The notes under the pieces are model-generated. The model was not told the origin of the DNA and made no database searches. It saw nothing but the letters and a program-made list of their open reading frames with translations. Positions 1,238-20,073 of a DNA stretch of 24,014 nt are shown here, in pieces; the first letter of the stretch is position 1, and the number at the start of each line of letters is the position of its first letter. Where the stretch lies: IMG/VR virus record IMGVR_UViG_3300018049_000144, positions 1 through 24,014 of that record. One strand, given 5' to 3'. A program made the translations under genes and the position numbers. This DNA comes from a virus.

Positions 1238-1852
1238 ATGTTAGCAGAATTATTTAATAAGTATGGTTGCGATAAAGCAAGTAAACATTCTTATGATGTA
1301 GTGTATGAAGCAGAGTTTCAAGGTATGAGAAATCTGCCAATTAATTTTTTAGAAATTGGAATTTTTAAAGGAAATAGTATTCAAGCTTGGCTAGACTTTT
1401 TTCCTAGAGCAACAATTTATGGCATCGATACTTTTCAACGAATTGATCCTAAAAATATTCCAGTACTTAAACACGAAAGAGTTAAATGGTTAAGGGCTGA
1501 TTCTACCAAAGAAGCAACACGTGACTTAGTAGACACAGTTTGGAATGATGTTAAATTTGATATTATTCTAGATGATGGAATGCACACTCCACGCGCAAAT
1601 GGACAAACGTTTTTACACTTTTACAATTTTTTAAAAGATGATGGAATGTATTTGATTGAAGATGCATGGCCACTTCATATCATGTCAAAGGAAGAAAAAA
1701 AGCATCCATGGATTAGAAAATATCCTGAAAGATATAACGCCGATGAAATGTATTTTTTTCAAAAGCACTTACCACCTACCAAAGTAGAAGAATTTGATTT
1801 AAGGAAAAACTCAGGTGAACCTGATAGTTACATATTTAAGATTACAAAATGA
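1238..1852 (+). CDS. Class I SAM-dependent methyltransferase, second copy type
   Basis: A 204-residue protein with FLEIGIFKGNS (37-47) as motif I, YGIDTF (61-66), FDIILDDGMHT (107-117) and GMYLIEDAW (136-144). This arrangement resembles sugar O-methyltransferases of the MycE/cephalosporin-hydroxylase-like group, in which the LDDGxH aspartates bind a metal. It is clearly different from the methyltransferase just upstream, so the two are not a recent tandem duplication. An AGGA ribosome site lies 8 nt before the ATG. The stop overlaps the next start by 4 nt. Confidence 0.78.
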   Translation: MLAELFNKYGCDKASKHSYDVVYEAEFQGMRNLPINFLEIGIFKGNSIQAWLDFFPRATIYGIDTFQRIDPKNIPVLKHERVKWLRADSTKEATRDLVDTVWNDVKFDIILDDGMHTPRANGQTFLHFYNFLKDDGMYLIEDAWPLHIMSKEEKKHPWIRKYPERYNADEMYFFQKHLPPTKVEEFDLRKNSGEPDSYIFKITK

Positions 1853-2544
1853 AACACTTTGCAATAGTTGTCAAAGACAACGACATATCTGAAAAAGGAT
1901 ATGAATTTTTAGTTAAAAGCTCAAAGTCTGTTGATAATAAATTTACAATAGAAAAATTTGATGCCGTTACTCCAGAAAACGTTGAAAGGCTTATGTTTGA
2001 GTCAGATGTCACTTGGAACTATCCTTGGGAAGGTGAAGTTATTGACATCGCAAGTGGAATGAAAAAACGTGCTTATCAAACAAAAAATAAGTATGCACGC
2101 ATGGCTGCAGCAATGAGTCATTTTCAATTATGGCAAGCTTGCTTTGAAAAACAAGAACCTTTTATGATACTTGAACACGATGCTATGTTTATGTTAAGAT
2201 GTGACGTAGATATTACTAAAACAAAGTTTGATATTTTAGGTATTAACAACCCATTAATGGCTACTAGATTAGCTCAGAAATACTATGATTTAGTAGTAGG
2301 TAATTTTGATCAATATCAACCAGTGCCTTATGTTGATAATGATATTACTGTTCCTCAAGGATTAGCAGGAAATTCAGCATATATAATTTCACCAGCTGGC
2401 GCTGAGCAAATGATATCATTAGTTTATAATTATGGATTATGGCCAAATGATGCTTTAATGTGTAAGCAATTAGTAAATAAACTCGGTGTCACTAGAAAAT
2501 TTTATACAAGGGTTCAAGGGTTACGGAGCACTACAACACAATGA
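1849..2544 (+). CDS. Glycosyltransferase family 25-like protein
   Basis: A 231-residue protein with the pattern of GT25 (LPS-biosynthesis) transferases: a conserved MAAAMSHFQLW helix (86-96), an acidic MILEHDAMF motif (106-114) in place of the usual EDDA, and GNSAYIISPAGAEQMI (174-189). GT25 enzymes transfer hexoses onto LPS or, in relatives, onto hydroxylysine. It overlaps both neighbours by 4 nt, which indicates translational coupling. Inferred role: adding a sugar to a glycan on the host or virion surface, or to modified DNA. Confidence 0.72.
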   Translation: MKHFAIVVKDNDISEKGYEFLVKSSKSVDNKFTIEKFDAVTPENVERLMFESDVTWNYPWEGEVIDIASGMKKRAYQTKNKYARMAAAMSHFQLWQACFEKQEPFMILEHDAMFMLRCDVDITKTKFDILGINNPLMATRLAQKYYDLVVGNFDQYQPVPYVDNDITVPQGLAGNSAYIISPAGAEQMISLVYNYGLWPNDALMCKQLVNKLGVTRKFYTRVQGLRSTTTQ

Positions 2545-3185
2545 ATTATGTAATACAAATTGATGATATTGAAGAATCAGTACAAGCTGCTAAAAGAGCT
2601 ATTAGAACAGCATCTTCTCATGGCGCTAGTGTAAAAGTATTTCATGCAATTACTCCACGTAATACAGATGTTTTTAAGAAGTGTGAAGAAGAAGGTATTA
2701 ATCCTGAAGGATTTAAAGAAATATATTCACGTTTTGAAAATTGTATTGCAGCATTTTTATCACATTATACATTATGGAAGAAGTGTGTTGAGGAAGATTC
2801 CAGAATTGGTATTCTTGAGCATGATGCAGTTATCACAAATCAATGGAACAGTGATATACCATTTGATAAAGTATGCAATATAGGTAAACCTTCGTATGGA
2901 AATTTTAACCATCCAGCTCACCTTGGTGTTGGTCCACTTGTTTCAAAACCTTATTTCGGTGGAGCTCACGCTTATTTAGTGAACCCAGCAGGAGCCAAAG
3001 AATTAATTAAACAAGCTAAAATAGCAGCTAAGCCAACAGATGTATTTTTACATAGAGATACATTCCCTTGGCTACAAGAAAAAAATCCATATGTTGCTGA
3101 AGTCAAAGATTCGTTTACTACAATACAAAAGGAAAGAGGATGCCAAGCCAAACATAATTATGGAGAAGGATATGCGTTACTCTAA
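2541..3185 (+). CDS. Glycosyltransferase family 25-like protein, paralogue
   Basis: A 214-residue relative of the preceding gene: IAAFLSHYTLWKKC (69-82), GILEHDAV (90-97) and FGGAHAYLVNPAGAKELI (139-156) align with its three GT25 motifs, but the rest has diverged widely. The start overlaps the upstream stop by 4 nt. Its last 14 nt overlap the next gene in another frame. Two diverged GT25-like genes side by side suggest two successive sugar transfers rather than redundancy. Confidence 0.72.
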   Translation: MNYVIQIDDIEESVQAAKRAIRTASSHGASVKVFHAITPRNTDVFKKCEEEGINPEGFKEIYSRFENCIAAFLSHYTLWKKCVEEDSRIGILEHDAVITNQWNSDIPFDKVCNIGKPSYGNFNHPAHLGVGPLVSKPYFGGAHAYLVNPAGAKELIKQAKIAAKPTDVFLHRDTFPWLQEKNPYVAEVKDSFTTIQKERGCQAKHNYGEGYALL

Positions 3186-3777
3186 TCTTTTTATCACTGG
3201 ATATGATAAAAATAATAAATGGATGTTAGACTGGTTTTTAAAAAATTTTAATGAACACTGTTCTACACCTATCCTTCCATATGATTTTGATGATTTTAAA
3301 ACACCTGTTGACGGTCAAAAGAATTGGTTTAAAAAACCATTTGCTATGATAGATGCTTCTAAGAAAGCCGAAAAGGTTTGTTGGATTGATTTAGATTGTC
3401 ATGTACTAGGTTCAATAGATAATATTTTTGATCACACATCTCCAAATAAACTTTCAATGGTAGAAGATGTACCTTGGTCAAAACGAAGAGGAGAAACGTG
3501 GCACAATTCAGGAGTGGTTTTATTTGAAAATAGACCTAATATTTTAGATGAATGGGCAGCGGCTGTTTCTTTAAACCCTCAAGTAGGAGATCAAGAAGTA
3601 TTACATTCTTTAGTGAGAGAAGGAATGAGAAGATTAATACATATAGAAAGTATATCACGTAAATATAATACTTTAAGACTAGACAAATTAGATAACTCTG
3701 AACCTAAAAAAGTTTTAGTTATGCATTGGACTGGAAAAAAAGGTAAAGAAGAAATAAGGAAATTAATTAATGAGTAA
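3172..3777 (+). CDS. GT8-like nucleotide-sugar glycosyltransferase
   Basis: A 201-residue protein with a DxD-type nucleotide-sugar/metal site in VCWIDLDCHVLGSID (69-83) followed by WHNSGVVLFE (110-119), the order found in GT8/GT-A transferases. The frame is open further upstream, but ATG 3172 is preferred because GGAG lies 6 nt before it; ATG 3160 is the alternative, and a longer start would run through the previous gene. It ends in an 8-nt overlap with the next gene. Confidence 0.62.
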   Translation: MRYSNLFITGYDKNNKWMLDWFLKNFNEHCSTPILPYDFDDFKTPVDGQKNWFKKPFAMIDASKKAEKVCWIDLDCHVLGSIDNIFDHTSPNKLSMVEDVPWSKRRGETWHNSGVVLFENRPNILDEWAAAVSLNPQVGDQEVLHSLVREGMRRLIHIESISRKYNTLRLDKLDNSEPKKVLVMHWTGKKGKEEIRKLINE

Positions 3778-6376: not shown

Positions 6377-6493
6377 ATGGCAAAAGGCTTTACAAACGCT
6401 AAGAAAACATCAATTGGTAGAAGAAATGTAAAAACGTCTTCTATGAATAAAAGTAAAAAACGTAGTTTTAAAAAATACAGGGGACAAGGGTGA
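6377..6493 (+). CDS. 38-residue highly basic peptide
   Basis: ATG 6377, with GAAAGGA 7 nt upstream, to TGA 6493. The peptide is made almost only of Lys, Arg, Ser, Thr and Gly, ending KKRSFKKYRGQG, a tail that I associate with very short conserved proteins of marine phages. It may bind nucleic acid. The last four bases overlap the next gene's GTG start (GTGA). Confidence 0.65.
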   Translation: MAKGFTNAKKTSIGRRNVKTSSMNKSKKRSFKKYRGQG

Positions 6494-7092
6494 ACTACTA
6501 CTTATTTGGGTTACAGAGATCAGGAACAAATTTAGTCCACAATTTAATTAAAGATAATTATGGATTGGAACCAGCAAATTCTGGACATGAAGAGTGGAAA
6601 CACTCTATGAAACCTGATTTAAAAAATGATTATCCAATTTTTAAAGTAATCAAAAATCCATACACTTGGGTTGAATCTATAGTTTATAGAGAACGTGCAG
6701 ATTTTTATGAAAAACATGATTATGATTTTTTCCAACCAGGACCATTTATGGTGGAAGATGTTAATTTAAATATGTTGATGTACGTTTATAAAACTTGGTA
6801 TGATCAATGGAAAGATAAAGGCATACTCATTAAATATGAGGATATTTTATATCCAGAACAACAAAGAGAATATTTTGCAAAACACTTTGGAGATTTAGGT
6901 GATTGGAAAACAGTTGCACCTGGATCTATGTTTATGTGTGAAGATTTTAAAGAAGAGCACTTAGAATATTATGAAAAGCAAAGACCAACGAAACTAACTG
7001 GTATGCATGTGAAAATAATTAATAAAGTGATGACTAAATATTTCTTTATTGAAACTGGATTTAAAATGTTAAGAGTAAAAGGATTAATCTAA
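6490..7092 (+). CDS. Sulfotransferase-family protein
   Basis: A 200-residue protein with the P-loop-like 5'-phosphosulfate motif GLQRSGTNLVHNLI (7-20), the 3'-phosphate-binding motif FKVIKNPYTWVESI (51-64) and ILIKYEDIL (112-120), the usual order in bacterial and phage sulfotransferases. The GTG start overlaps the upstream TGA; no good ATG lies upstream. The 3' end overlaps the convergent minus-strand hydrolase gene by 9 nt. It is predicted to use PAPS; the acceptor is unknown. Confidence 0.78.
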   Translation: MNYYLFGLQRSGTNLVHNLIKDNYGLEPANSGHEEWKHSMKPDLKNDYPIFKVIKNPYTWVESIVYRERADFYEKHDYDFFQPGPFMVEDVNLNMLMYVYKTWYDQWKDKGILIKYEDILYPEQQREYFAKHFGDLGDWKTVAPGSMFMCEDFKEEHLEYYEKQRPTKLTGMHVKIINKVMTKYFFIETGFKMLRVKGLI

Positions 7093-7594: not shown

Positions 7595-7623
7595 TGTACA
7601 TTTGAATAGAACTATGGTAGTAT
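7595..7623 (+). promoter_or_regulatory. Early sigma70-like promoter P2
   Basis: TGTACA (7595-7600), 17-bp spacer ending in ACTATGG, and TAGTAT (7618-7623). It stands between the divergent hydrolase gene and the glycine-zipper gene, and would produce a short leader with AAGGAG before ATG 7650. Confidence 0.78.
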
Positions 7624-7649
7624 ATATAAAATCTTTAAGGAGTCAGACT

Positions 7650-8120
7650 ATGAAAAAACTTATTCTCGCAATTGCATTGATTGGCATTGGTAGCACAACA
7701 TTTGCTACATGCGCTCAAGCTGCAACTCGTCCAGCAAAAGTTGTGTTTGTTGAAACAGAAAGAGTTTACGAAAATGTTTATGTTGAAAAAGAAGTTTGTA
7801 CACGTGAAAGAATTGAATATACTACACCAAGCGGCGATGTTCTTGGAGGCCTAATTATTGGTGGAATCCTTGGTAAAATCATCACAGGTGATGATGGAGG
7901 TGCTGCTGTAGGTGCTGTACTTGGTGCAGGTATTGAAGGTAATAAAAGAAAACATGTAGGTCATGGGTACGAAACTAAATGTGAAATTGTAGTTGAACCT
8001 GTTAAACGTGAAATCAATATGTATGTCGTCCATTGGAAATATAAAGGAAAGCGTGGATATTTCTTTACAGAAAAGAAACACTACGTAGGCCATACTATTC
8101 ACGTTGATGTAGGCCACTAA
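7650..8120 (+). CDS. Exported glycine-zipper (17-kDa surface antigen-like) protein
   Basis: ATG 7650 is chosen over the upstream in-frame ATG 7602 because AAGGAG lies 7 nt before it and 7602 falls inside the promoter spacer. The 156-residue product has a signal peptide (MKKLILAIALIGIG), a glycine zipper 2TM-type segment (GGLIIGGILGKIITG, then GGAAVGAVLGAGIEG, about 66-97) and four Cys in total. This resembles the rickettsial 17-kDa antigen and enterobacterial SlyB families, which sit in the outer membrane. FATC is a poor lipobox. Likely role: altering the host envelope; not proven. Confidence 0.75.
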   Translation: MKKLILAIALIGIGSTTFATCAQAATRPAKVVFVETERVYENVYVEKEVCTRERIEYTTPSGDVLGGLIIGGILGKIITGDDGGAAVGAVLGAGIEGNKRKHVGHGYETKCEIVVEPVKREINMYVVHWKYKGKRGYFFTEKKHYVGHTIHVDVGH

Positions 8121-8761
8121 TGGTATTTAAATTAAGTGGTGATTTAAATAGATGGGGCATAGGAAAAATCGGGAATGGTTTAGTTCATCCAGACAAAACT
8201 AGATTTTGGTTAGATATTCCAAAAAATGCATCACAAACTACAATTCATGGATTAACTAATCGTCATAAAAATGATGGAAAATGGCAACCAATTAATTCAT
8301 CAAACTTTAATGTTAATAAAACTCACAAATATTTAATTGTTAGAGATCCGATCCAGAGATGGGTTGGATCTTCAGTAGAATTAGCATGGCATTTTCATAA
8401 ACATAAATCAGAGGGAGATTTTTTTGCACAAAAAAATTTAAGAGAATGGTATGATATGCACGCACAGCCTGATCTTCACCACTTACCGCAATGGGTATGG
8501 GCAAGATATTTAGACTTATATAATGGTACAACTTTTATTATAATGGACGATAAAGATATTAAATTAAAATTAAAAAAAGCATTTCCAGATTATGATTTTG
8601 ATATAAATGTAAATTATACTGAAGATAGTGAATTTAAGAAGAAAATGAAATATCGTATTATGGATGAGTTCATGACTGATCCTATATTTGTAGATAAGTT
8701 AAAAGATTATTACGCTGAAGACTACGATTTACTTGAACTAGCACATAAAAATCAGTTATAG
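8120..8761 (+). CDS. Sulfotransferase-family protein, second intact copy
   Basis: A 213-residue protein with FWLDIPKNASQTTIHGL (29-45) as the 5'-phosphosulfate loop of the Sulfotransfer_2 type and KYLIVRDPIQRWVGSSVE (70-87) as the 3'-phosphate site. TFIIMDDKDI further on corresponds to the conserved strand before the C-terminal helices. It shares one base with the preceding stop (TAATG), so it is coupled to the glycine-zipper gene. It is not closely similar to the copy at 6490. Confidence 0.75.
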   Translation: MVFKLSGDLNRWGIGKIGNGLVHPDKTRFWLDIPKNASQTTIHGLTNRHKNDGKWQPINSSNFNVNKTHKYLIVRDPIQRWVGSSVELAWHFHKHKSEGDFFAQKNLREWYDMHAQPDLHHLPQWVWARYLDLYNGTTFIIMDDKDIKLKLKKAFPDYDFDINVNYTEDSEFKKKMKYRIMDEFMTDPIFVDKLKDYYAEDYDLLELAHKNQL

Positions 8762-8776
8762 ATATAGAGGTAACAT

Positions 8777-8872
8777 ATGGTTGATAGTAACGATGAAGAT
8801 CCAGAACCAATACGGTATTATGAATGGATGCTTTGGAAATTGAGACAAGAGCGGAAAGAAAATGACAAATAA
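8777..8872 (+). CDS. 31-residue peptide directly upstream of the radical SAM gene
   Basis: ATG 8777 (AGAGG 7-11 nt upstream) to TAA 8872. The peptide is acidic at the start, then aromatic (RYYEWMLWKL), then basic. The radical SAM gene begins inside it with an 11-nt overlap. It may be only a translation-coupling leader or a small protein; a modified-peptide precursor is possible but unproven. Confidence 0.55.
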   Translation: MVDSNDEDPEPIRYYEWMLWKLRQERKENDK

Positions 8873-9710
8873 AAGATATAAAGATTTCTATGACGACAAT
8901 AATTTGTGGATGTGGTTAGATATATGTACAAACTGTAATGCAGGATGTCCCGAATGTCACAGAACAGATTGGGAAGGTGGAGGCCTAGGAAAGCAAGAAT
9001 GGCTTCCTCTTGTTAGTTGGACCTTTGCACAATTTAAAAAGGTTTATCCTCCTGAGTTTATTAAAAGAGTAAAAGAGTGGGATATTTGTGGAACGTGGGG
9101 AGACCCTGCAATGTGTAAAGATCTATATGAAATTGCAGAATATATTATTACACATCGTCCTAATGTTAAATTAAGCATTGATACAAATGGTAGTATTAGG
9201 TCTAAAGCCTGGTGGAGAAAACTTGGTGAATTATCTAAACTTATGCCAATAGATGAAGGTGTAAGACCTATTAGAGTTGATTGGGCAATCGAAGGCATCA
9301 ATCAAGAAATGCATCAAGCGTATCGTAGAAAAACTCACTTAAATAAAGTGCTAGGAAATATGCAAGCTTTTGTTGAAGGTGGTGGTTATGCAACAGCTAT
9401 GGTGGTTGTTCATAAACATAATCAAAACTATTTGCAAGAAATTAAAGATTTAGCAATGTCTTATGGTGCAACCGAAGCCTGGTTTACAGAATCAAATCGT
9501 TTTTATAATGGTCCTATTTTCCATTTTAAAGATGAACATGGTAATGATGCTACATTAGAACAAGCTGGTGGTGACTATTATAAACCTAATCCTGTTAGAC
9601 CACCTCAAGCGGATTGGAAAACAAGAGTAGAAAAACAAGCCTGGTTTAAAGAAGCACAAGAGGGCGTAGATGAAATAGAGGAATTTGAAGATGAAGACAA
9701 CTTGTATTGA
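8862..9710 (+). CDS. Radical SAM enzyme
   Basis: A 282-residue protein with the radical SAM cluster motif C-N-A-G-C-P-E-C (Cys25, Cys29, Cys32) preceded by another Cys22, then GTWGDPAM (77-84) in the place of the GGE-type motif, LSIDTNGS (104-111) and VDWAIEG. This is the core of a partial TIM barrel that cleaves S-adenosylmethionine to a 5'-deoxyadenosyl radical. It lacks the C-terminal cluster domain, which seems to be encoded by the next gene in another frame. The acidic tail (EEFEDEDNLY) overlaps that gene. Confidence 0.85.
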   Translation: MTNKRYKDFYDDNNLWMWLDICTNCNAGCPECHRTDWEGGGLGKQEWLPLVSWTFAQFKKVYPPEFIKRVKEWDICGTWGDPAMCKDLYEIAEYIITHRPNVKLSIDTNGSIRSKAWWRKLGELSKLMPIDEGVRPIRVDWAIEGINQEMHQAYRRKTHLNKVLGNMQAFVEGGGYATAMVVVHKHNQNYLQEIKDLAMSYGATEAWFTESNRFYNGPIFHFKDEHGNDATLEQAGGDYYKPNPVRPPQADWKTRVEKQAWFKEAQEGVDEIEEFEDEDNLY

Positions 9711-10098
9711 ATGTAGTTGGCAAAATGAAGGAAAAATTTTAATTAATCCTGATGGCCAAGTTTTTCCTTGCTGTTATCTTGCCAATAAGACATATAAAGC
9801 TGATCAGCATGGTGCAGCATTTGCTACTATGGAAGAAAAATCTGAAGAATGGGGCAATTGGTTTTGGAAAGAAAAGTCTGATGCGATTATGAGAAAATAC
9901 ATAGAGCATAAAGACGATTTAAACGTATTTAATAAACCAATGGAAGAAATTGTAAATCACCCTTGGTTTACAGAATGGCTGCCTGAGTCATGGGAAGAAG
10001 AAGAAACACGTAATGAAATTTGTGTTACGTTTTGTGAAGTTCCTGTAGATGAAGAAGAGAAAAAAGAATTCTTTGAAAAGTATACAAATTCATCATGA
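9691..10098 (+). CDS. SPASM-like iron-sulfur protein, partner of the radical SAM enzyme
   Basis: A 135-residue protein starting TTCIECSWQ, then ILINPDGQVFPCCYLANK and, near the end, ICVTFCEVP. C-x2-C, the DGxVxPCC block and the distal C-x3-C make a SPASM/twitch-type auxiliary cluster domain, which in most enzymes is fused to the radical SAM core. ATG 9691 is preferred over TTG 9685, because AGAGGAA lies 7 nt before it. It overlaps the radical SAM gene by 20 nt in the +1 frame. It ends overlapping the carbamoyltransferase start by 4 nt. Confidence 0.75.
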   Translation: MKTTCIECSWQNEGKILINPDGQVFPCCYLANKTYKADQHGAAFATMEEKSEEWGNWFWKEKSDAIMRKYIEHKDDLNVFNKPMEEIVNHPWFTEWLPESWEEEETRNEICVTFCEVPVDEEEKKEFFEKYTNSS

Positions 10099-11456
10099 CA
10101 TTAATTGTTGGCATAAGTGAGGGATTTCACGATGCCGGCCATTGCGTGATTAAAAATGGAAGAATTATTAAGGCTGAGCATTCTGAAAGATTTACTCGTA
10201 AAAAAAATGATAGATGGTTATCTGATAACTCTGCAACAGATATTTGCAGAGCAGACTTAGTTGCTTTTTATGAAAAACCTTGGCTAAAAAAGACTCGGCA
10301 GTTTTATGCTGGACAAGGCTGGAAGAAAACTCATACAAAATATGATATTTGTTTTCCTCATCATATGTCTCATGCCGCAGCTGGATTCTATACATCGACA
10401 TTTGATGAATGCGATATTTTAGTAGTTGATGCCATTGGTGAATGGGATACTATTTCTATCTGGAAAGCCTGGATGGATGGCGATATACCAAAAATGAAAA
10501 AGACCAAGAGTTGGAAGTATCCATATTCTCTTGGTCTTTTTTATTCTGCGGTAACACAAAGAATTGGACTTAAACCGCAAGAAGATGAATATATTACAAT
10601 GGGTATGGCAGCTTATGGTTCTCCTAAACATGTCACAGCCTTGCAACCTTATATGGAATCTAACTGCCATAAAGGTATTGGCAATGCAATTCCAGAAGCA
10701 AAAGATGAAGATCTTGCAGCCTCTGCCCAATTTTGCATTGAAAGAGAAATATTACATATAATAGACAAATATTGTTCTCATAAAAATTTAGTGTTTATGG
10801 GAGGTGTGGCTCTTAATTGTGTTTTAAATACTAAGATAGCTGAACGTGGAAAAAATATGTGGATTATGCCTAATCCTGGTGACTGTGGATCCTCTCTTGG
10901 CGCTGCAGCATTAGCATATGGTAAAAAATTAAAATGGAGGCACCCATATCTTGGTACAGACATACGAAGAGAAATCAATCCTACAGAAGTTGTTGAACAT
11001 TTGCTTAAGCATTCTTATTGCGGTGTTGCAAACGGTCGTGCAGAGTTTGGCCCTCGCGCTCTTGGCAATCGTAGCTTGCTTGCTGATCCTAGACGAGATA
11101 TTAAAGACACAGTTAACCAAATTAAACGTCGACAAAAGTTTCGACCCTTTGCACCCGCAATCATGGAAGAATATGCTGACGAATATTTTGAAGGACCGAT
11201 GAATGAGTATATGCAGTTTGTAGCAAAAGCTAAACATGATTATTCTTCAGTAACACATGTAGACGGTACAGCAAGAGTACAAATTGTAAGAAAGAATTGT
11301 ATGTCACCACTAAGAATTATTTTAGAAGAATGGATGGATAAAACAGGTGTTCCTATGTTATTAAATACAAGTCTTAATATTAAAGGACAGCCTATGGTAG
11401 ATACATGGGAACACGCGAAACAATTCGAGGAGCATTATAATGTTAAAGTCTTCTAA
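10095..11456 (+). CDS. NodU/CmcH-family carbamoyltransferase
   Basis: A 453-residue protein with HHMSHAAAGFY (89-99), VVDAIGEWDT (110-119), GLFYSAVTQRIG (147-158), FMGGVALNCVLN (234-245), GRAEFGPRALGNRS (314-327) and KFRPFAP (348-354). These are the motifs of TobZ/NodU/CmcH enzymes, which make carbamoyl-adenylate from carbamoyl phosphate and ATP and move the carbamoyl group to a hydroxyl. It is shorter than the approximately 570 residues of many relatives. Known acceptors in the family include sugars, cephems and, in some phages, 5-hydroxymethylcytosine in DNA. The acceptor here is unknown. It overlaps the next gene by 17 nt. Confidence 0.88.
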   Translation: MTLIVGISEGFHDAGHCVIKNGRIIKAEHSERFTRKKNDRWLSDNSATDICRADLVAFYEKPWLKKTRQFYAGQGWKKTHTKYDICFPHHMSHAAAGFYTSTFDECDILVVDAIGEWDTISIWKAWMDGDIPKMKKTKSWKYPYSLGLFYSAVTQRIGLKPQEDEYITMGMAAYGSPKHVTALQPYMESNCHKGIGNAIPEAKDEDLAASAQFCIEREILHIIDKYCSHKNLVFMGGVALNCVLNTKIAERGKNMWIMPNPGDCGSSLGAAALAYGKKLKWRHPYLGTDIRREINPTEVVEHLLKHSYCGVANGRAEFGPRALGNRSLLADPRRDIKDTVNQIKRRQKFRPFAPAIMEEYADEYFEGPMNEYMQFVAKAKHDYSSVTHVDGTARVQIVRKNCMSPLRIILEEWMDKTGVPMLLNTSLNIKGQPMVDTWEHAKQFEEHYNVKVF

Positions 11457-12273
11457 AATATTATTTGCTTCTGGTTGTAGTTTTACACAAGAAGGTTGGA
11501 CAATTACAGAAGCAAATTATATGAAAGATTATCCAACAGGACCACATCCAATGTGGCCTGAAATCTTAGGAAATAAAATGAATTTAAAGGTTGTCAATCA
11601 CGGTCGTGGTGGGCATGGTAATGATTACATTATGCAAGACAGCATAAAATTTATTCTTGACAATTATAAGAATATAGAATTAGTTTGTATTCAATGGTCA
11701 CAATTAACTAGAATGTGGGTTTATGATATGAATTATTTTAATCCTTCAGTCTGGTTAAATGAAGAATATCGTAAATATGGAAGACCTGAATGGGAAGAAG
11801 ATGATTTTAATGGCTTTCCAAATATTTTTGGTGATAGATTTAAAGCTTCTACAAAATTAATGAAATTTGTTATAAGAGATCCGTATACTGTTGTAGATTT
11901 ATTTAAAAAGTATCTTAGAGAAATATACACACTTCAAAAATTATGTGAAGAATTAAATGTGAAATATATTATGGGTCAAGGGTTTACTTCTCATCAGTTA
12001 GATCAATGGAAATTAGTTAATCCTGATTTGGATTGGAAAGAAGTTTTAAGTTGCTTAGTTGGACAACCAGAGTTTCATTTAATTAATAAGAAAACATTTA
12101 TGGGTTGGCCTTGTCTTCCTGAGCTTGGTGGTATAACAATGACAGATCATCATCCAGAATTTTCGCCTATTCCAAAAAATAGAATAAATCCTATAGATCC
12201 ACATCCAAGCGCTTATGGCCAAAAACTTTTAGCTGAGCAATTTCATAGCAAATATGTAGAGTTATACGGATGA
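11440..12273 (+). CDS. SGNH-hydrolase-like protein
   Basis: A 277-residue protein with ASGCSFTQ (10-17), NHGRGGHGND (53-62), IQWSQLTR (84-91) and IDPHPSAYGQKLLA (252-265). The Ser in GCSFT, the Gly and Asn of the second block and the D-x2-H-like final block match the SGNH order, seen in esterases and in domains that acetylate or deacetylate glycans. It follows the carbamoyltransferase with overlap, so it likely acts on the same product. Substrate not shown. Confidence 0.7.
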   Translation: MLKSSKILFASGCSFTQEGWTITEANYMKDYPTGPHPMWPEILGNKMNLKVVNHGRGGHGNDYIMQDSIKFILDNYKNIELVCIQWSQLTRMWVYDMNYFNPSVWLNEEYRKYGRPEWEEDDFNGFPNIFGDRFKASTKLMKFVIRDPYTVVDLFKKYLREIYTLQKLCEELNVKYIMGQGFTSHQLDQWKLVNPDLDWKEVLSCLVGQPEFHLINKKTFMGWPCLPELGGITMTDHHPEFSPIPKNRINPIDPHPSAYGQKLLAEQFHSKYVELYG

Positions 12274-13220
12274 CTTATGTTTTATTTAGTGGTTGTAGTT
12301 TCACCGCAGAATCATATTACTGGCACCAATTTATAAGAACGCCTGAAGAAAATTTATTACATGATTATCACAGAGGTTTAAACCTCTTTCCAGCCTGGCC
12401 TGAAATTTTAACAAATCAGCTTAATAAAAAGACAGGCAGTAATCATGAATGTGTTAATGTTGCTGTGTCTGGAGATAGCAATCAACAAGCTATTAGAAAT
12501 ATATTTACTTATCTTGAAACTCATGAAAAACCAGAAGCAATAGTCATAGGTCTTACTGAATGGACAAGATTTGTAGATTATTATGGTAATGCTATAACTT
12601 GTTCGCTTGTTAGCCATTTAAGTCAACGAGGATTTTATGATGATCCAGAATCATTTGATGAGCTTGAAGAAATTATCATTGACTATCAACAATCAAGATA
12701 TCAAGGGCATAAACTAAAATCCGCCACTGCGTCTACTATTTTTGGATTTATGGAAGGAAAGCAAGCAAGAAAATACTATCGAGGAGCAATAGAACTGAAT
12801 TTAGATTATTTAGAATATTTAATTCTTTATTGCCGTGTAAATGAAATAAAACTTCTTCTTTGTCAAGTTCTATCTCCTTGGTGGGGTGGTAGTCTAAATC
12901 CAGAAGATTATGAAGAATCCAAAAAGCACATAGGTTATGAGTGTAATAACTTAAAAAATAGAATAAATACTATTGAAAGTTATTTTGATGCAAACTGTAA
13001 ATTTCATACTGAAAAGGAAATAGGATTAGAAAATTCATTAAGATGGAATTCGAATTGTCTGACTAGGAAATGGAAACACTGTCATTCTTTTCATTGTTCT
13101 AATGTTGTGATCCCATCTACTGGTAAACCTGATCCTGGAGATCAACACCCAAATAAAGAAGGACATGAGTATATTGCGAGCCTTATATTTAAAGATTTTA
13201 ATGCATTATTCAATCATTAA
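12270..13220 (+). CDS. SGNH-hydrolase-like protein, paralogue
   Basis: A 316-residue relative of the preceding gene: FSGCSFTAES (6-15), VAVSGDSNQQAIRN in the Gly/Asn position, IGLTEWTRF after it and DPGDQHPNKEGHEYIA near the C-terminus. The two share motif order but little other sequence. The ATG overlaps the upstream TGA by 4 nt. Five genes from the radical SAM gene to here overlap without a gap and must be one operon. Confidence 0.68.
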   Translation: MTYVLFSGCSFTAESYYWHQFIRTPEENLLHDYHRGLNLFPAWPEILTNQLNKKTGSNHECVNVAVSGDSNQQAIRNIFTYLETHEKPEAIVIGLTEWTRFVDYYGNAITCSLVSHLSQRGFYDDPESFDELEEIIIDYQQSRYQGHKLKSATASTIFGFMEGKQARKYYRGAIELNLDYLEYLILYCRVNEIKLLLCQVLSPWWGGSLNPEDYEESKKHIGYECNNLKNRINTIESYFDANCKFHTEKEIGLENSLRWNSNCLTRKWKHCHSFHCSNVVIPSTGKPDPGDQHPNKEGHEYIASLIFKDFNALFNH

Positions 13221-19155: not shown

Positions 19156-20073
19156 ATGTCTTTTGCAAACCTTAAACGTAATAAAAATAAAATTGACCAG
19201 TTGGTAGCAGCAGCGGAAGCAACTGGTGGTGGAAGTTCAAATAATAAGTATGAAGATACTCGTTTTTGGAAACCCACAGTAGATAAAGCCAACAATGGCT
19301 ACGCTGTAATCCGATTCTTACCAGCAGCTGAAGGTAATGACTTGCCGTGGAATCGCTATTGGGACCACGGGTTTAAGGGCCCAACAGGTCGTTGGTATAT
19401 CGAAAAATCACTTACCTCTATTGGCCAAAATGATCCAGTCGGTGAACTAAACTCTCGCCTTTGGAATTCTGGTATTGAGGCTGACAAACAAAAAGCCCGT
19501 AATCAAAAACGTCGGCTTCATTACGTATCAAACGTAATGGTTGTTAGTGATCCAGCAAATCCAGATAATGAAGGTAAAGTATTCCTTTATCAATATGGTA
19601 AAAAAATCTTTGATAAACTAATGGATGCTATGCAACCTGAGTTTGCTGATGAAGAACCAGTTAACCCATTCGATTTTTGGAATGGAGCGAACTTTAAGCT
19701 TAAAATTCGTGATGTTGAAGGTTATCGTAACTATGATAAGTCTGAGTTCTCTGCCCCTAGCGCATTAAATGACGATGATGCAGAGCTTGAAAAGATTTAT
19801 AATGGACTCTATGACTTACGTGAATTTACTGATGCAAGTCAGTATAAATCTTATGACGAGCTTAAAGCAAAGTTGATGAGTGTTCTTGGTGAAGAAGCAA
19901 ATGCTGGCGCACCTAAGATTGATGATGAAATTAAACTAGGCAATGAAACTCCTGCACCTAGCATGAAAGAATCTGCTCCATCAACTATTGAGGAGACCAT
20001 CTCATCTAATGATGATGAGGATGATCTCATGGCTCATTTTTCTCAGCTTCTGGATGACGACGAAGCTGCTTAA
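19156..20073 (+). CDS. 32: Single-stranded DNA-binding protein gp32
   Basis: A 305-residue protein close to the T4 gp32 length (301). The N-terminus (SFANLKRNKNKIDQLVAAAE) holds the LAST-like basic patch for cooperative binding; the core contains FWKPTVDKANNGYAVIRFLP, RRLHYVSNVMVVSDPANPDNEGKVF and FDFWNGANFKLKIRDVEGYRNYDKSEF, all gp32 OB-fold landmarks; the C-terminus is acidic (NDDEDDLMAHFSQLLDDDEAA) for binding partner proteins. It coats single strands in replication, recombination and repair. Unlike T4 gp32 it has no cysteine, so no zinc site. The stop overlaps the stop of the convergent late gene. Confidence 0.96.
   Translation: MSFANLKRNKNKIDQLVAAAEATGGGSSNNKYEDTRFWKPTVDKANNGYAVIRFLPAAEGNDLPWNRYWDHGFKGPTGRWYIEKSLTSIGQNDPVGELNSRLWNSGIEADKQKARNQKRRLHYVSNVMVVSDPANPDNEGKVFLYQYGKKIFDKLMDAMQPEFADEEPVNPFDFWNGANFKLKIRDVEGYRNYDKSEFSAPSALNDDDAELEKIYNGLYDLREFTDASQYKSYDELKAKLMSVLGEEANAGAPKIDDEIKLGNETPAPSMKESAPSTIEETISSNDDEDDLMAHFSQLLDDDEAA

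Follow-up and report, generated by a model that had tools for sequence, protein, structure and literature searches.

Most of the SPASM proteins characterized so far are peptide modifiers. BlsE, by comparison, acts on glucuronic acid, catalysing the C5 decarboxylation of cytosylglucuronic acid (PMC3715490). A study of 2010 listed carbamoyltransferases among cyanophage genes (PMC3037559), and a phage member of the family carbamoylates 5-hydroxymethylcytosine (5hmC); the published enzymes of this type co-occur with an Asp177-type homologue of thymidylate synthase, and three specificity residues have been named for them (PMC8670742). In the sections of PMC7029224 used here, the GT8 glycosyltransferases and UDP-glucose 6-dehydrogenase of pelagimyophages are read as modifying the host O-chain, and radical SAM cassettes are noted in the host recognition cluster of these phages. 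Here we describe a phage operon in which a radical SAM enzyme divided over two genes is joined to a carbamoyltransferase of the TobZ/NodU type (CT) and two SGNH proteins.

Origin of the sequence and organization of the operon

The window, by which we mean the whole stretch of DNA that was analysed, is an IMG/VR virus record of 24,014 bases. It encodes a T4-type single-strand DNA-binding protein, and the 62-kb contig of one relative runs on, as judged by reading its ORFs, into baseplate and fibre genes. From its gene content, the window is predicted to be a fragment of the genome of a T4-like phage of bacteria, probably of marine origin. The genomes of the window group are incomplete, their records being fragments of a larger genome. 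A search with PF08722 showed that a TnsA-like phage gene is common to the records tested.

Table 1. Features of the window, with the evidence for each assignment.
Feature	Position	Strand	Evidence and remarks
Two GT25 glycosyltransferase ORFs and one GT8/nucleotide-diphospho-sugar-transferase-like ORF	1849..3777	+	Context, outside operon; GT25: PF01755 1.7e-10 and 4.9e-13; GT8-like: PF03407 0.0017 / PF01501 0.0087
Secreted glycine-zipper protein and protein with sulfotransferase-like motifs	7602..8761	+	Upstream context, outside operon
Radical SAM half, 282 aa	8862..9710	+	PF04055 5.6e-8; CX3CX2C at C25/C29/C32; GTWGDP motif
SPASM-only subunit, predicted auxiliary Fe-S cluster carrier, 135 aa	9691..10098	+	PF13186 1.8e-5
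Predicted O-carbamoyltransferase, TobZ/NodU/GdmN kind, 453 aa, compact	10095..11456	+	PF16861 8e-47; PF02543 4.5e-37
SGNH1, 277 aa	11440..12273	+	Ser14 in GCSFT; Asp253/His255 in DPHP
SGNH2, 316 aa	12270..13220	+	SGNH1 paralogue; GCSFT and DQHP
T4-type single-strand DNA-binding protein	19156-20073		phrog_224, 6e-112

The five genes announced by the first-pass annotation between 8862 and 13220 were all found, in the order radical SAM, SPASM-only, CT, SGNH1 and SGNH2, each overlapping the next (by 20, 4, 17 and 4 nt, respectively), and these overlaps support its proposal that the set is expressed together. In comparison with the relative L002, the dN/dS ratios of the genes in operon order were 0.055, 0.021, 0.094, 0.172 and 0.321; all five are under purifying selection, with the SGNH genes evolving fastest. 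In this comparison the SGNH genes also had larger dS values (0.91 and 0.63) than the radical SAM gene (0.37), an indication that SGNH alleles have been exchanged. Both the anatomy of the operon and the conservation of its order are far above chance expectation. Upstream lies a pair of ORFs syntenic in L002-L004, one of whose products carries sulfotransferase-like motifs (IPKNAS and RDPxxR) that place it in this family by eye alone; the Pfam search with ORF 8120-8761 returned no family.

A radical SAM enzyme in two parts

The radical SAM half scored 33.6 bits against PF04055 (cut-off 29.5), as expected of a member of the superfamily, and residues C25, C29, C32, C76 and G80-D81-P82 were invariant among 14 homologues. 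This protein carries no SPASM domain of its own, its sequence stopping before the region that forms SPASM in fused homologues. The AF2 model (pLDDT 80.6) had BlsE (7vob) as its top PDB match (E 6.6e-9), and BlsE was also the top profile match (3.4e-4); with 17% identity and a TM of about 0.5, this likeness is at the level of the superfamily. The window protein was not among the matches of the BlsE family model (NCBIfam equivalog TIGR04466), and the corresponding protein of L106 scored 28.6 bits against a cut-off of 400, which leaves it outside that family.

The SPASM-only protein likely starts at ATG 9691, which is preceded by a Shine-Dalgarno-like AGAGGA, with an in-frame TTG at 9685 as a possible alternative (ORF 9685-10098). 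It scored 25.4 bits against PF13186 (cut-off 21.5). Five cysteines (C8, C27, C28, C111 and C115) were invariant among 15 homologues, instead of the full set of seven auxiliary-cluster cysteines, so that the protein would rather be a one-cluster, twitch-like version of SPASM. Its profile matches the C-terminal ~100 aa of radical SAM/SPASM fusion proteins of phage and bacterial origin (best E 9.3e-27), which identifies the gene as the detached C-terminal part of such a fused enzyme.

The two-part character of the enzyme, which had been noticed in the first-pass annotation, was borne out in the fetched loci, where a SPASM-less radical SAM gene adjoins 35 of 36 SPASM-only genes. These genes reduce to 15 non-redundant versions at 80% identity, nearly all of them from marine phages. 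The two domains are encoded by two genes, and not by one polypeptide, in all 35 pairs; the gap between the genes ranges from -23 to +14 nt, two different relative frames are used, and in L115-L118 the order is reversed, with one SPASM gene in first place. Programmed frameshifting within a single gene, or its misassembly, would account for the 20-nt overlap of the ORFs and for the resemblance of their joined product to a fused homologue, but this explanation was rejected as extremely improbable because frames, gaps and order vary among the pairs, and because the SPASM gene has its own start codon and Shine-Dalgarno sequence together with a dN/dS of 0.02. The same variation leaves no room for a common frameshift and favours two subunits. 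The split is thus real and old, and the pair looks like a two-subunit enzyme, constituting the most unusual element of the operon. No description of a detached SPASM gene beside a truncated radical SAM partner was found in the literature searched. If both halves work as one enzyme, they would offer a natural way of uncoupling the catalytic part from the auxiliary cluster.

In a tree of radical SAM domains, the clade of the window protein comprised 17 split sequences together with 5 fused ones, and was set apart at 100/100 from 14 fused sequences, cellular and viral, and from the long-branched row of Pelagibacter phage Mosig; within it, the window protein grouped with those of L099 and L102 (95/88). 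Several changes of the split/fused label are needed on this tree, so splitting or refusion occurred more than once, the count being unsure due to long branches (Mosig, CP220). A cellular origin was considered and rejected, as the bacterial matches at 41-43% identity sit in phage-like contigs of MAGs; genuine relatives from cells have the two domains fused, at an identity of about 21-35%.

The peptide-acting nature of most characterized SPASM proteins raises the alternative that the pair modifies a peptide, in the manner of RiPP maturation, or a tail-fibre protein. The NCBIfam near-misses do include peptide maturases, and in L115, L121 and L125 the split pairs lie, by eye, between ORFs resembling tail-fibre genes. 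Against this, no small ORF upstream of the split pair is conserved that could serve as precursor, and none beside the radical SAM gene is common to the lineages: the one candidate, a 31-codon ORF at 8777-8872, was rejected because it is absent from this place in other lineages and lies elsewhere in L100. Moreover, partners such as CT and SGNH proteins better suit a sugar bearing hydroxyls, and we consider a peptide or fibre protein an improbable substrate.

The carbamoyltransferase and the SGNH proteins

Besides its Pfam domains, CT matched phrog_1601 (4.4e-87), the novobiocin carbamoyltransferase (9s2t, 7.8e-49) and TobZ (4e-36), and it contains the motifs HHMSHA, VVDAIGE, GDCGSSLGAA and GRAEFGPRALGNRS. 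The N- and C-terminal domains are both present with their metal- and ATP-site motifs, in agreement with the TobZ/NodU kind named in the first-pass annotation, and the protein is accordingly described here as a predicted O-carbamoyltransferase. A nucleotide search of annotated phages gave only two partial matches to its gene.

SGNH1 had no match in the Pfam search. Its AlphaFold2 model (pLDDT 81.8, pTM 0.85) matched PatB, Axe2 and TesA in the PDB at a probability of about 1.0, the closest structures being the peptidoglycan O-acetyltransferase PatB and acetylxylan esterases (Axe2), at 10-15% identity and low TM (0.32-0.46). The residues GCS(F)T, N53, G58, R91 and DxHP were kept over 24 homologues. 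SGNH2 matched PF00657 weakly (0.0016) and PRK10528 (4.6e-4), and with 30-31% identity over about 115 aa the two proteins are paralogues. Thus, both belong to the SGNH superfamily as anticipated, showing its fold or its Ser, Gly/Asn and Asp-x-His motifs, SGNH1 by its model and SGNH2 by motif and homology. SGNH2 occupies the same place in L001-L004 and in L103-L106/L114. As no membrane acyltransferase partner (Acyl_transf_3, MBOAT) was found in 16 records, both proteins may act as esterases and not as transferases.

Recurrence of the module in other phages

The complete five-gene order was found in four close contigs (L001-L004) and also in a distant T4-like group (L103-L106/L114), the SPASM protein of which is about 40% identical to that of the window. 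All proteins compared between L001 and the window were identical, so that L001 may be the same virus. The first four genes, up to a single SGNH gene, are present in L108-L112/L119, and L133 has all the components of the module in one row. A scattering of the genes among relatives, which would have spoken against the pathway suggested at first, was not observed: their order is kept in distant phages, and the pairing of CT with SGNH is common. An SGNH gene was adjacent to CT (within 150 nt, same strand) in 28 of 53 non-redundant loci, compared with 36 of 570 control genes (6%), for which we took the remaining genes of these loci with 150 codons or more. The association of CT with SGNH is also seen where the split enzyme is missing. 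A radical SAM-family gene lay at 6 kb or less from 28 of the 53 CT genes, a count made without a control set. In the Pelagibacter phage Mosig, a single run of genes contains a split radical SAM/SPASM pair, SGNH, an aminotransferase, a second radical SAM protein, CT and a GT8-like protein. The company of CT, SGNH and radical SAM genes provides a testable function for carbamoyltransferases that have been listed without a role in marine T4-like phages since 2010.

A sugar as the likely substrate

Genes for sugar metabolism accompany the module in several lineages. A UDP-glucose dehydrogenase family gene was detected in 11 of 16 records tested, and in L106 and L109 it directly follows the module; it was not found in the records of the window group, which are genome fragments. 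In phages of the L020 type, genes for an epimerase/dehydratase and for cytidylyltransferase-like and phosphomannomutase-like proteins lie near CT-SGNH. Several split pairs adjoin GT8-type genes, and in the pairs closest to that of the window (L099 and L102) the next gene is GT8 and not CT. The match to BlsE, the structural matches of SGNH1, and the presence of UDP-glucose dehydrogenase and GT8/GT25 genes nearby all point to sugars as the substrate. Our preferred explanation, which we hold to be somewhat better than an even bet, is that the operon is a co-translated module for tailoring a sugar of a surface or virion glycan. The recurrence of the gene set in independent lineages and the published reading of the pelagimyophage genes also favour it. 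Against it count the distant nature of the likeness to BlsE, the lack of UDP-glucose dehydrogenase in the fragments of the window group and of a membrane acyltransferase partner, and the GT8 gene that takes the place of CT in L099 and L102.

From the observed anatomy, conservation and company of the genes, we infer the following substrate, order of reactions and location of the product. The radical SAM protein would associate with the SPASM subunit, which would bring an auxiliary Fe-S cluster, and the resulting enzyme would act by radical chemistry on a sugar. This sugar would most likely be a uronic acid, or such an acid in nucleotide-activated or glycan-bound form. With carbamoyl phosphate as donor, CT would carbamoylate, via ATP, a hydroxyl of the same sugar, and the two SGNH proteins would add or remove O-acyl groups, serving either two positions or two different substrates. 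The glycosyltransferases of the phage (GT25/GT8) would build the decorated sugar into a glycan, which might end on the surface of the infected cell, where it would change the receptor and block co-infection, or on the virion fibres.

Alternatively, the module could make a soluble carbamoylated compound related to nucleosides or aminosugars, acting on the host or on competitors in a way that recalls blasticidin and tobramycin tailoring. The nearest solved relatives (BlsE, the novobiocin carbamoyltransferase, GdmN and TobZ) are indeed antibiotic-tailoring enzymes, and AG-345-D19 has an extra large ORF between the sulfotransferase-like and SGNH genes. Solved structures are, however, biased towards antibiotic enzymes, the window contains neither a transporter nor a scaffold-building enzyme, and the genes of the module sit among glycosyltransferase and fibre genes, all of which makes a soluble product distinctly unlikely.

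DNA as a possible alternative target

The module might instead decorate a sugar or hydroxymethyl group on the cytosines of phage DNA, where CT would carbamoylate 5hmC or the sugar that it bears, as a defence against restriction. Apart from the phage precedent (PMC8670742), several relatives lend themselves to this reading. C48C1, whose CT is 48% identical, carries a TET/JBP protein and an annotated DNA methyltransferase, and its nucleotide-sugar epimerase and UDP-glucose dehydrogenase lie beside the DNA polymerase/primase. Asp177-type genes resembling dCMP hydroxymethylase are present elsewhere in the CT-SGNH relatives G018 and G022, and also in G025/G026, where the split radical SAM occurs without CT. 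DNA-linked sugars are thus possible in these distant relatives (G018, G022, G025, G026 and C48C1).

For the window group the evidence runs the other way. No PF00303 gene was found in the L001-L004 records, incomplete genomes of up to 62 kb, nor in the complete genomes of Mosig, HTVC008M and C48C1, which have homologous CTs; TET/JBP was absent from the window group, Mosig and HTVC008M; and the thymidylate synthases detected at up to 8 kb from the CT genes fetched were all of the ordinary Asn177 type. The Asp177-type companion of the 5hmC system is therefore missing from the window-group records, from the three complete phages and from the 8 kb around CT genes, and a route to 5hmC through dCMP hydroxymethylase or TET found no support in the window group as far as its incomplete genomes extend. 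In addition, CT (453 aa) is of 51-kDa size, compared with 63 kDa for the 5hmC enzyme. We regard DNA as an unlikely target, and the part of the first-pass annotation that invoked carbamoylation of 5hmC is not supported, while co-expression, the protein families and a pathway of sugar or small-molecule modification stand.

A more speculative idea, to which we give little credence, is that SPASM is an exchangeable subunit that together with CT and SGNH would generate a new radical-rearranged, carbamoylated and acylated sugar, attached in some lineages perhaps to DNA as a new hypermodified base. The availability of Mosig as a cultured relative with homologous parts makes the glycan and DNA readings separable by experiment.

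Comparison with known systems

Like the TobZ, NodU, GdmN and novobiocin O-carbamoyltransferases, CT has both domains with metal- and ATP-site motifs, although it is shorter than these enzymes. With the 5hmC carbamoyltransferase (MetaGPA, PMC8670742) it shares superfamily and phage origin; it differs in its smaller size and in having SGNH and radical SAM partners, with no Asp177 homologue alongside. SGNH1 shares with the glycan O-acetyltransferases and esterases of the SGNH type (PatB, Axe2) the fold and the Ser / Asp-x-His motif, whereas the window has two adjoining paralogues and lacks a membrane acyltransferase partner. The pelagimyophage host recognition cluster, as presented in the sections of PMC7029224 used here, has in common with these loci GT8, UDP-glucose 6-dehydrogenase and radical SAM cassettes near fibre genes; those sections describe neither a split enzyme nor a CT or SGNH module.

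BlsE, the cytosylglucuronate decarboxylase of the blasticidin S pathway, has the same CX3CX2C cluster site as the window protein, but is a single chain and carries a GGEP motif in place of GTWGDP. Finally, the single-chain radical SAM/SPASM enzymes of cells (L135-L148) contain the same two domains as the split pair in one protein, whereas in the phages these are two gene products without a covalent link, and the phage radical SAM sequences form a clade separate from the cellular ones with 100/100 support.

Genes surrounding the module and its homologues

Three ORFs of the window resemble sulfotransferase genes (table), the first two on the basis of weak Pfam matches and the third on the basis of motifs only, recognised by eye. 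The 31-codon ORF was also detected in another locus, L100, at a different place. Upstream of the carbamoyltransferase-SGNH genes of other phages lie ORFs that, by eye, have the appearance of aminolevulinate-synthase-type enzymes (L023:1-969 and L020:1-510). In six loci (L059, L062, L063, L067, L077 and L091) the carbamoyltransferase gene is adjoined by tandem SGNH genes, up to eight, a copy number well above the two of the window.

Features of the window and of related phages
Feature	Position	Content
Three window ORFs, one region	2-349, 6490-7092, 8120-8761	Sulfotransferase-like features
31-codon window ORF, MVDSNDEDPEPIRYYEWMLWKLRQERKENDK	8777-8872	Conserved in close relatives L001-L004
Contig G004, close relative of the window	L158:19095 to L159:4159	Several glycosyltransferase-like ORFs (by eye)
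Campylobacter phage CP220 (L011)	70690-78500	Radical SAM gene run, amidinotransferase-like gene, sugar-transferase-like genes
Phage C48C1 (OQ984149.1; L155, L156)	33480-37226 and 49583-52032	TET/JBP protein, annotated DNA methyltransferase, nucleotide-sugar epimerase, UDP-glucose dehydrogenase

The glycosyltransferase-like ORFs of G004 are flanked by baseplate and tail-fibre genes, and the split radical SAM/SPASM enzyme of other phages occupies sites of this kind. The radical SAM run of CP220, whose genes are distant kin of the radical SAM half in the window, also lies near baseplate genes.

Possible cytosine-modification genes in related phages

Thymidylate-synthase homologues of the Asp177 type, small (224-246 aa) and resembling dCMP hydroxymethylase, were observed in L130, L131 and L153, in phages related to the window through either the carbamoyltransferase-SGNH genes or the split enzyme. 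In C48C1, the DNA polymerase and primase genes adjoin the gene set listed in the table, which looks like a pathway for glycosylation of 5-hydroxymethylcytosine.
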